Source of the DNA: an uncultured Erysipelotrichaceae bacterium
GTDB taxonomy: Bacteria > Bacillota_I > Bacilli_A > RFN20 > CAG-826
Assembly (NCBI GenBank): GCA_902777015.1
Contig: CACYSA010000005.1
Span: 1 to 64,000 of the forward strand
Direction of reading: 5' to 3'
DNA length: 64,000 nucleotides
Shown: positions 20,445-22,525 of the stretch, piece by piece
How the letters are laid out: the number at the start of each line of letters is the position of its first letter
Numbering within the stretch: position 1 is the stretch's first letter
The notes under the pieces: generated by a model
What the model was told of the DNA's origin: nothing
The model's input: the letters and a program-made list of their open reading frames with translations, nothing else
The model's database searches: none
Program-made: the position numbers and the translations under genes

Positions 20445-21656
20445 ATGGACAAACAATTATTAAAACAATATGACCACTATAAGTCTTTAAACCTCAACAT
20501 CTCTATGGCTAGAGGCAAGCCTTGCAAAGAACAAGTTGATTTATCTTTACCAATGTTAGATTTATTAAATTCATCTTCTAATTTAATTATTAATAATGCT
20601 GATTATCGAAATTATGGAATATTAGACGGCATCCCTGAATGTAAGAAGATGTTTTCTAATATCATGGGTATTAAAGAAGAAAACATTATTGTTTACGGTA
20701 ATTCTTCTTTATATATCATGGCCTCACTTGTGGAAAAAAGTGTCCTTCATGGTGTTAATAACGGCCTTCCATTTTCTAAACAAAAACATATCAAATGGCT
20801 ATGTCCAGTTCCTGGATATGATAGGCACTTTACAATATGTGAATCACTAGGCATTGAAATGATTAACATCCCAATGGATGAACATGGTCCAGATATGGAC
20901 AAAGTGGAACAATATATTAAAGATCCAACAGTTAAAGGTATTTGGTGTGTACCTAAATATTCAAATCCAACTGGTATTAATTATAGTGATGAAGTGATAA
21001 GAAGATTTGCGAAATTAAAACCCGCCTCTAATGATTTTAGAATCTACTGGGATTTAGCGTATCTCGCTCAACAATCTTTTGATCAACAATATGAACCTAT
21101 ATTAAATATCTATGATGAATGTAAAAAGTATAACAATGAAGATATTGTTTATATGTTTACATCAACTTCTAAGATGACATTCCCTGGTTCAGGTGTCTCC
21201 GCTTTAGGGTGCAGTGAAAATAACATCAAAGATATTAAGAACACATTAAAATATCAAACCATCGGTTATGATAAATTAAATCAATATAGACACGCATTGT
21301 TCTTTAAAGATGATAAAGCCATTAAAGAACATATGAATAAACACGCTAAATTATTAAAACCAAAATTTGATATCGTTTTAGATATATTTGAAAAAGAAAT
21401 AAAAGACATTGCTAGATGGAGTAAACCAACAGGTGGATATTTTATATCCCTTTACGTTAAAAACGCCTCAGAAGTCGTAAAAACATGCAAAGAATTAGGA
21501 GTAACACTTACAGATGTTGGTGCTTCTTATCCATATCATAAAGATCCTAATAATGAACACATAAGAATCTGTCCTAGCTATCCATCATTAGAAGAACTTA
21601 AGTTAGCGACAGAAGTTATTTGCCTAGCGGTAAAACTAGTTCACGATAAAGCGTAA
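20445..21656 (+). CDS. aspartate aminotransferase-like enzyme (PF12897-type)
   Basis: 403 residues, slightly shorter than typical members (~420). The N-terminal ISMARGKPCKEQVDLS matches the LNMARGKP-type opening of this family, followed by GNSSLYIM, CPVPGYDRHF, VPKYSNPTGI, and the Schiff-base Lys in TSTSKMTFPGSG. These are PLP enzymes annotated as aspartate/other aminotransferases; the physiological substrate is not certain. It starts 5 bp after the Fic stop, so the two are probably co-transcribed, and it ends at a strong terminator. Confidence 0.85.
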   Translation: MDKQLLKQYDHYKSLNLNISMARGKPCKEQVDLSLPMLDLLNSSSNLIINNADYRNYGILDGIPECKKMFSNIMGIKEENIIVYGNSSLYIMASLVEKSVLHGVNNGLPFSKQKHIKWLCPVPGYDRHFTICESLGIEMINIPMDEHGPDMDKVEQYIKDPTVKGIWCVPKYSNPTGINYSDEVIRRFAKLKPASNDFRIYWDLAYLAQQSFDQQYEPILNIYDECKKYNNEDIVYMFTSTSKMTFPGSGVSALGCSENNIKDIKNTLKYQTIGYDKLNQYRHALFFKDDKAIKEHMNKHAKLLKPKFDIVLDIFEKEIKDIARWSKPTGGYFISLYVKNASEVVKTCKELGVTLTDVGASYPYHKDPNNEHIRICPSYPSLEELKLATEVICLAVKLVHDKA

Positions 21657-21659
21657 AAA

Positions 21660-21691
21660 CAAAACGTTCCTTTTTCTCGGAACGTTTTTGT
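21660..21691. terminator. strong, probably bidirectional terminator
   Basis: AAAACGTTCC (21661-21670), 8-nt loop, GGAACGTTTT (21679-21688), with T-runs in both directions. It ends the Fic/aminotransferase transcript and could also stop leftward transcription through the tandem RNAs. Confidence 0.85.
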
Positions 21692-21781
21692 TTACCGACC
21701 GGGGCAGTTACCATCCCGGATCACCTTTCCACCTATTTCCAGGTGCGTCGTGGTCGTGCACTGATTCTCCACCTTCGGTAA
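21692..21781 (-). ncRNA. structured RNA repeat A (family not recognised)
   Basis: Distinctly more GC-rich than its surroundings. It matches repeat B over most of its ~90 nt. Closing stem TTACCGA (21692-21698)/TCGGTAA (21775-21781); inner hairpin CCGGG (21699-21703)/CCCGG (21715-21719); hairpin 21730-21745 that on the minus strand is CACCTG-GAAA-TAGGTG-type with a GAAA tetraloop. The minus strand is favoured because the loop-closing pair is G-U there but A-C on the plus strand. Not a riboswitch, ribozyme or tRNA that I recognise. Confidence 0.7.
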
Positions 21782-21792
21782 TTATAAGTTTG

Positions 21793-21887
21793 TTTTGTCA
21801 ACCGGGGCAGTTACCATCCCGGATCGCAGTAGCCATCTATTTCTAGATGCGTCGTGGTCGCGCACTGATTCTCCACCTTTGACAAAA
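21793..21887 (-). ncRNA. structured RNA repeat B (family not recognised)
   Basis: Second copy. Closing stem TTTTGTCAA (21793-21801)/TTGACAAAA (21879-21887) differs completely in sequence from that of repeat A yet pairs perfectly. The GAAA hairpin (21834-21849) has compensatory changes relative to A. The CCGGG/CCCGG hairpin and the block before the closing stem are conserved in sequence. It begins 24 nt after the stop of the minus-strand gene at 21912, so it could be that gene's 3' UTR or a processed RNA. Confidence 0.7.
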
Positions 21888-21911
21888 TCATTATATCAAA
21901 CTTTTCTAAGT

Positions 21912-22295
21912 TTAATAGTCTTTTATTTTATAAGCTATGAACACAGTTTTTATGTAATAAATTTTACTTTCCCCCTCTTTTAGTTTTATTGCCAATTGGA
22001 TAAAACCCTTATTGCCTCCTTTTCTTTTAATGTAGTAGTAATAAGTATCTTTTAATTCTTTGCTCTTAGTGAATCTTATGTAATTTTTTATTCCTTCAAT
22101 TATTGTTTCGATGTCTCTCACTTTAAGCTCATGTGTGCTTTTGGCAATATGTTGGAATCTAGTCTCGTTACTCCTTGATTTGTCATTTTCAACAGAAATG
22201 ATGAACCCATGTCTTTTATCTTCGATTGTGGGAGGCAGCTTTTCTAATGCCTCGATGATTTTCAAGTTGTATTTGCTGTAAGATTTCTTTGCCAT
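21912..22295 (-). CDS. small basic protein, possible BECR-fold RNase (PBECR-like)
   Basis: 127 residues, Lys-rich. The order RFQHIAKSTHELKVRDIETII, then DTYYYYIKRKGG, then IYYIKTVFIAYKIK resembles the small phage/toxin RNases of the Barnase-EndoU-ColicinE5/D-RelE (BECR) superfamily, with His in the first helix and a final strand carrying Thr/Tyr. This is a reading by eye; no catalytic set is proven. There is no clear Shine-Dalgarno sequence. It is immediately followed on the same strand by the two tandem structured RNAs and a terminator, which makes a protein-RNA pair plausible. Confidence 0.5.
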   Translation of the reverse strand: MAKKSYSKYNLKIIEALEKLPPTIEDKRHGFIISVENDKSRSNETRFQHIAKSTHELKVRDIETIIEGIKNYIRFTKSKELKDTYYYYIKRKGGNKGFIQLAIKLKEGESKIYYIKTVFIAYKIKDY

Positions 22296-22354
22296 AAAGT
22301 GACTACATTTTAGAACACAAAAAAGTTAGAAAACAACACATATTTTTTGCTCAA

Positions 22355-22440
22355 GATGACCATCCCCATTTATTTATATTTATACTCAATGTAGATGTAG
22401 ATTAGTAGATATACTAAATATAAATATGGGGATGACCATC
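22355..22440. repeat. long inverted repeat between the small minus-strand gene and gdh
   Basis: Left arm from 22355 (GATGACCATCCCCAT then TTATTTATATTTA) pairs with the right arm ending at 22440 (TAAATATAAATATGGGG then ATGACCATC). About 24 of 28 positions pair, with a two-base bulge. A T-run follows at ~22447. The rest of 22296-22558 is AT-rich with no gene seen. Could be a terminator/attenuator or the remains of a MITE-like element. Confidence 0.6.
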
Positions 22441-22525
22441 TAAAAAATTTTTTTGAAGTAGGTGGATAGATATATAAAAAATATATAATTTTGATACGTT
22501 TTTTGTATGATGTTGTTTTTCATAG

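Follow-up and report, generated by a model that had tools for sequence, protein, structure and literature searches.

In the 64,000-nucleotide (nt) stretch of DNA from an uncultured Erysipelotrichaceae bacterium analysed here (contig CACYSA010000005.1, positions 1 to 64,000; hereafter the window), an unannotated gene for a protein of 127 amino acids (aa) is directly followed, on the same minus strand, by two tandem copies of a structured RNA, and we think it likely that this predicted nuclease gene and the RNAs form a toxin-antitoxin module acting like the type III systems. In the proposed mechanism, the protein encoded at 22295-21912 would be a small endoribonuclease that has the BECR fold and needs no metal, and a strong extended -10 promoter belonging to the tandem RNAs would drive their transcription irrespective of toxin production. 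The RNAs would fold into pseudoknotted shapes resembling transfer RNA (tRNA), and would inhibit the nuclease in trans by binding to it, with the tRNA-like shape serving as a substrate decoy. Both the toxicity of the nuclease and its neutralisation by direct RNA binding are what we infer from sequence. The features of the module are given below, with scores for R1, a covariance model made from relatives of the window RNAs, and for the Rfam family RF02924 (skipping-rope).

21912-22295, minus strand: predicted toxin gene, 127 aa, BECR-fold (RelE/BrnT/PBECR-like) ribonuclease (open reading frame (ORF), alignment, AlphaFold2 model, profile match)
21890-21898, minus strand: extended -10 element TGATATAAT (promoter of the RNA unit), located past the toxin stop codon and ahead of copy B
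21795-21885, minus strand: RNA copy B, proximal to the predicted toxin gene (R1 99.8 bits; RF02924 30.9 bits; covariation)
21864-21867, minus strand: 5' side of the copy B pseudoknot, CAGU, partner ACUG at 21808-21811 (alignment columns 21-24 with 81-84, covariation)
21808-21811, minus strand: 3' side of the copy B pseudoknot, ACUG, in the P4 loop (covariation)
21692-21781, minus strand: RNA copy A, distal, same architecture as copy B (R1 90.0 bits; RF02924 30.9 bits; covariation)
21760-21763, minus strand: 5' side of the copy A pseudoknot, CAGU, partner ACUG at 21705-21708 (covariation)
21705-21708, minus strand: 3' side of the copy A pseudoknot, ACUG, in the P4 loop (covariation)
21661-21688, minus strand: hairpin and T run resembling an intrinsic terminator, ending the RNA unit (1 found vs 0.6 in shuffles)

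Conservation of the association between toxin gene and RNA

When 144 related genomes were searched, 20 of them proved to contain homologous ORFs, 25 in all, and each of the 25 is followed on its own strand by the RNA, 13 to 50 nt past the stop codon. Two further homologues, L104 and the very divergent L106, were found by a class-wide protein profile alone, after the RNA model was built, and when these are combined with L099 and L136 the RNA lies directly downstream on the same strand in 29/29 homologues. The L106 RNA has its P2 helix altered to GATGG/CCATC-like partners. The weakest match of the protein-profile search (L107) is a DNA glycosylase and was dropped. Tandem RNA copies are also present at L013 and single copies are common, and the window genome itself has a second homologue (26% identical) on another contig, followed by three further RNA copies. 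The named records containing homologues are uncultured Bacilli and Erysipelotrichaceae, several of them from ruminant gut, and the close family of the window protein looks restricted to one bacterial family: the searches made found no relatives of the protein in viral contigs or plasmids, and a scan of viral contigs with the exact motif of the window RNA family was also negative. An in-frame stop near the 3' end was reported in some homologues, which in L020, L027 and L036 is the true stop that the search had read through, and the homologue at L022, whose start region is not intact, may have decayed.

With the R1 model, 54 RNA matches were obtained in 27 genomes, with 34 located behind a toxin gene and 20 without toxin. 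At the site orthologous to the window module, genome G004 has flanks which are 95.9 and 96.4% identical and has kept both RNAs, but the toxin segment (~21896-22471) is absent, and genome G006 has one RNA and no toxin at this same site. The toxin is never seen without RNA and the RNA is often seen without toxin, which is the pattern expected for a toxin and its antidote. The two components also diverge together, since toxin and RNA distances are correlated (Mantel r 0.77, p <= 0.0005, with 0/2000 permutations exceeding 0.21), and for genomes containing two modules the most similar RNA found elsewhere is the partner of the most similar toxin in 8/10 cases.

Constant adjacency and co-divergence would suit any ribonucleoprotein, and the RNA could be a cofactor or guide needed for nuclease action, as in an RNA-dependent effector. 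We consider this improbable, as the RNAs and their promoters persist where the nuclease is gone, where a cofactor would have no reason to remain, lone copies are found inside phage tRNA clusters (see below), and there is no variable guide-like segment, the variation being confined to covarying stems and loops. It is equally improbable that the toxin is controlled otherwise and that the RNA is a free-standing small RNA (sRNA) or a small mobile cassette lodged there by chance. While stand-alone units with promoter and terminator do occur at many sites, such hitch-hiking does not fit with the complete adjacency, the matched divergence and the independent recurrence with PBECR nucleases in phages, and no inverted or direct repeats frame the RNA units in the window.

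Structure and family of the RNAs

The two copies are each ~90 nt long and lie in tandem with a spacer of 8 to 13 nt, and no third copy was found in the window with the R1 covariance model up to an expect value (E) of 10. The earlier note on this DNA had described tandem, structured minus-strand RNAs with compensatory base changes, and the R1 matches and an alignment of relatives agree with this description. The alignment was made with plain MAFFT from 21 homologous RNA copies from related genomes, the cells of which are not independent events, and had 96.4% of the paired cells able to pair, vs 83.8% in shuffles and 28 to 49% with slid partners, with two-sided changes in 20/28 base pairs. The nested helices were recovered unaided by RNAalifold. 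Folding energies of the single sequences are unremarkable (minimum free energy z -0.85 and -1.06), and the claim for structure is made because of the covariation and not because of the minimum free energy.

All pairings listed in the earlier note proved correct. The closing stems (TTACCGA/TCGGTAA vs TTTTGTCAA/TTGACAAAA) differ in sequence but pair perfectly in both copies, and the C-G to T-A exchange in the GAAA hairpin between the copies was likewise recovered. The pseudoknot, which had been put forward as a possible pairing between CAGT and ACTG, now has all 4/4 pairs changed on both sides and 100% of cells paired in the 21 copies, and comes in four types (CAGU/ACUG, CGGU/ACCG, CGCU/AGCG and GAGC/GCUC), which recur alongside different toxin clades. 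Of the outcomes which the earlier note had named as refuting, an absence of homologues with covariation and a match to a known mobile DNA repeat did not come about.

The same note had assigned the RNAs to an unknown family, which holds in so far as there was no match at the curated cut-off of Rfam, but not at a looser threshold, where both copies align over the full length (1-80 of 80) with the RF02924 skipping-rope family (30.9 bits, E 2e-5 for 401 nt). Because neither copy reaches the gathering cut-off of 36.7 bits, the window RNAs are, by sequence score, sub-threshold relatives and not members of RF02924. When the whole genome was searched with RF02924 there were no matches, the copies being too divergent for the first-look filter. 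The window RNAs share with skipping-rope the helix order P1-P2-P3-P4, the two-nt joint between P1 and P2, the abutting of P4 on P1, and the pseudoknot between the P2 and P4 loops, which has been reported for the Rfam family (PMC7779021). Unlike RF02924, the P2 helix of the window family consists of four pairs (GUGG/CCAC) and the P2 loop is longer, and some copies have an additional P2-loop hairpin or a long P4 extension. These last two define RNA subtypes, one with an additional P2-loop hairpin of ~40 nt (TGTACGTCC...CACCGGTGAG; L021, L022, L023, L034 and L099) and one with a P4 longer by ~45 nt (GGAAGCTAATAGATGACCTC...; L023, L026, L030, L032, L033, L037 and L038), and each subtype tracks particular toxin clades. 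No published function for skipping-rope was found in a literature search that did not cover the original 2017 description of this RNA class, and the papers found to name the family or its accession mention it only briefly.

Promoter and terminator-like hairpin of the RNA unit

A hexamer matching TATAAT in at least 5/6 positions is located directly before the RNA in 35/35 cases examined, which included ten stand-alone RNAs, compared to a background rate of 9% in random stretches of the same loci. This hexamer mostly ends 12 nt before the GGTGG sequence, often with a TG upstream. With the -10 box present in 35/35 RNAs, the RNA would therefore be made on its own, with its start near the first base of P1. 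At the other end, where the earlier note expected a minus-strand transcript to stop, a terminator-like hairpin is present at 21688-21661 on the minus strand; this evidence is weak when the window is taken alone, and similar hairpins are found 3' of the RNAs at other loci.

Tandem GC-rich structured RNAs with a pseudoknot might also be a pair of riboswitches or ribozymes. These RNAs are however located 3' of a coding gene and their terminator faces a convergent gene, leaving nothing downstream to be regulated, they have their own promoter and terminator and exist as stand-alone units, and no Rfam riboswitch or ribozyme was matched, which together make this reading extremely improbable. Riboswitch pairs, ribozymes and RNA antitoxins had all three been suggested in the earlier note, and it is the RNA antitoxin which is best supported, with the other two not favoured.

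Many small toxins adjoining a small RNA are regulated by base pairing with the toxin messenger, and the RNA could repress the toxin in such a type I-like manner. This is very unlikely here: there is no complementarity to the toxin start, duplex energies are alike for cognate and non-cognate combinations (-27.55 vs -27.47), the duplexes are no better than those of shuffles (mean z +0.28, 0/24 below -2), and the RNA is on the same strand as the toxin gene rather than antisense to it. The protein is also predicted to be a soluble enzyme-like fold of 127 aa and not a small hydrophobic peptide.

The neighbouring protein is a predicted BECR-fold ribonuclease

The 127-aa protein had no match in Pfam, PHROGs, NCBIfam or PADLOC and does not match the Pfam PBECR models PF18810 and PF18812. 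An alignment of 22 sequences has invariant H49, H55, D61 and R91, and either Thr or Ser at position 117 (T117 in the window protein). In the portion of the source consulted (PMC5512222), PBECR nucleases are described as having a His in the N-terminal helix and a C-terminal Thr/Ser, and H49 and the Thr/Ser at 117 fit this description; the same portion makes no mention of an RNA partner for PBECR. Comparison with a profile set of phage PBECR domains using hhalign gave a match over 81 columns (E 2.2e-5, prob 76). The AlphaFold2 model, made with seven sequences, has a predicted local distance difference test score (pLDDT) of 87.5 and a predicted template modelling score (pTM) of 0.80, and its VIA-align neighbours are mostly from the RelE superfamily, i.e. 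BrnT (Z 6.4, the best), RelE, HigB, ParE, RegB and CdiA-CT. Foldseek also gave many weak NTF2-like matches; as these cover only the sheet, the RelE-superfamily list was preferred to them, although its own Z scores are modest. A BECR/RelE-type fold is likely for this protein but not proven.

Skipping-rope RNAs and PBECR nucleases in phages and across the phylum

Scanning viral contigs with a pattern yielded 43 loci, and when RF02924 matches were counted at the cut-off, 39 skipping-rope copies were present in 37 phage contigs (37/43 loci), with L054, L063, L072, L074, L080 and L090 dropped for having no Rfam skipping-rope match. Among the 33 nearest upstream ORFs, PBECR2 was found 17 times, PBECR3 15 times, Phage_Mu_F six times and Phage_min_cap2 three times, and hence PBECR nucleases are encoded by at least 17/33 upstream ORFs vs at most 2/114 control ORFs, where neither PBECR family is among the 25 commonest families, allowing at most one of each. 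The PBECR domains are often on capsid (MuF-type) proteins, and the skipping-rope typically starts 24 to 54 nt past the stop codon of the upstream gene. The association was also seen from the protein side, as phage MT835941.1, found by protein alone, has a skipping-rope 34 nt downstream. In addition, PBECR3 scored over the cut-off in 6/295 genomes from across the phylum, in three as stand-alone genes and in three within proteins of >2300 aa, and all three stand-alone genes are within ~160 nt of an independently found skipping-rope, with the RNA first in two. No report linking skipping-rope to nucleases was found in a search conducted outside the subscription literature.

In two homologous phages (L083:5015-5113 and L092:6419-6517) the RNA is identical over 99 nt, whereas the toxin C-termini of the capsid genes are unrelated; by analogy with orphan immunity genes, the RNA may have been left behind after toxin replacement. 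Two other loci have unusual surroundings. Contig C4 of genome G399 (L041, L047, L048 and L050) has four skipping-ropes in 5 kilobases, and beside them a PBECR3 gene, an ORF that may be PemK/MazF-like and a pair resembling RelBE, and in L071:802-1024 a Streptococcus-type SpF41 sRNA (RF02435) lies 43 nt from a skipping-rope on the same strand, and the two may be one unit.

A tRNA-like arrangement of helices

In order along the RNA there are an end stem of 7 bp, two unpaired bases, an arm of 4 bp, one or two bases, a third arm, a variable stretch and an arm of 5 bp abutting the end stem, and the loop of the second arm pairs with that of the last. This arm order and these junction lengths are those of tRNA. 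The likeness is in architecture only, as neither ARAGORN nor Rfam predicted a tRNA gene at the window RNAs. Some BECR nucleases, colicins D and E5 among them, cut tRNA, and the arrangement suggests that the RNA might fill the tRNA-binding surface of the toxin as a decoy, which is the least certain step of the mechanism.

Skipping-ropes are also located near or inside the tRNA clusters of three large phages (L076:12324-12420, L062:883-966 and L067:6524-6616), where the L076 copy lies between tRNA-Ala and tRNA-Ile and the L062 copy adjoins tRNA-Ala. None of the three has a nuclease gene beside it, and it is possible that these lone copies are counter-defence decoys.

Weighing the toxin and RNA antitoxin interpretation

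Several observations weigh against the module being a toxin with its RNA antitoxin. As the genomes are related, the 29/29 cannot be counted as that many independent events. A recognised PBECR gene is missing beside about half of the phage skipping-ropes, and no RNA was detectable near the three giant polyvalent PBECR3 proteins. For the window protein, the absence of a Pfam family counts in the same direction, the best structural Z score lies in a range where chance arrangements also occur, and Foldseek gave no match at E <= 0.001, with BrnT at rank 2 (E 0.035).

On the sequence comparisons taken together, skipping-rope probably serves a large family of nuclease toxins as their antidote. For the wider proposal, that skipping-rope RNAs and their relatives are tRNA-shaped antitoxins or immunity factors for the whole PBECR class, both on chromosomes and with phage-capsid toxins, and that the lone copies in phage tRNA clusters are counter-defence decoys, we see the chances as evenly balanced. 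If our interpretation is right, skipping-rope acquires a function, a second toxin fold, unrelated to the first and with another gene order, is added to the RNA-antitoxin systems, and the predicted capsid-delivered PBECR nucleases are given the immunity factor that they lacked, while the tRNA-like shape would hint at what PBECR-type nucleases bind.

Other features surrounding the module

Two further features flank the module:

20445-21656, plus strand: aminotransferase-like gene, convergent to the RNA unit
22355-22440, minus strand: long inverted repeat located 5' of the toxin gene (GGTCATCCCC-ATATTTATATT ... ATAAATAT..GGGGATGGTCATC; alignment A9, close clade of homologues)

The inverted repeat (CATCCCCATATTTATATT ... 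AATATAAATAT.GGGATG) is also found upstream of L015-L021 and L104, and the changes in its outer arm look compensatory (e.g. CATCCC, TATCCC, CATCAT). It is possibly an operator, a hairpin leader in the 5' untranslated region, or a cruciform.

Comparison with known systems

The window module shares with the type III toxin-antitoxin systems (ToxIN, CptIN, TenpIN) the combination of an endoribonuclease toxin, here predicted, and a tandem pseudoknotted RNA beside it. In type III systems the RNA repeats precede the toxin in a shared operon with one promoter and a terminator between them (PMC5086642), whereas in the window the RNA is behind the toxin and has its own -10 box. The modelled toxin would also have a BECR rather than a ToxN fold, and had no match to the ToxN, CptN or TenpN families in Pfam, NCBIfam or PADLOC. 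The module thus differs from type III because gene order and toxin family, two defining features, do not agree.

Another likeness is found with AbiF and RCd22 of C. difficile, where a structured RNA with a sigma-A promoter binds and neutralises the toxin protein; RCd22 belongs to an RNA class that comparative genomics had first revealed, and is a proven RNA antitoxin (PMC12373285). Both have a small structured RNA with its own promoter, from a class known through comparative genomics, but toxin and RNA are different ones, and RCd22 lies upstream of its toxin.

With the PBECR nucleases of phages and conjugative elements (PMC5512222), the window protein has in common the profile similarity, the helix His and the C-terminal Thr/Ser. 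It differs in being encoded by a stand-alone gene in a host genome and not as a capsid fusion, and is too divergent for the Pfam models. Finally, the MuF toxins of temperate phages are capsid proteins with C-terminal toxin domains, for which small immunity proteins are presumed to be encoded downstream (PMC5576092). The phage loci described here resemble these polymorphic toxins in having a capsid-borne toxin domain, often PBECR, immediately behind which an immunity factor would be expected, and differ in that the downstream factor is an RNA and not a small protein, which, if true, would make RNA the immunity factor in a polymorphic toxin system.
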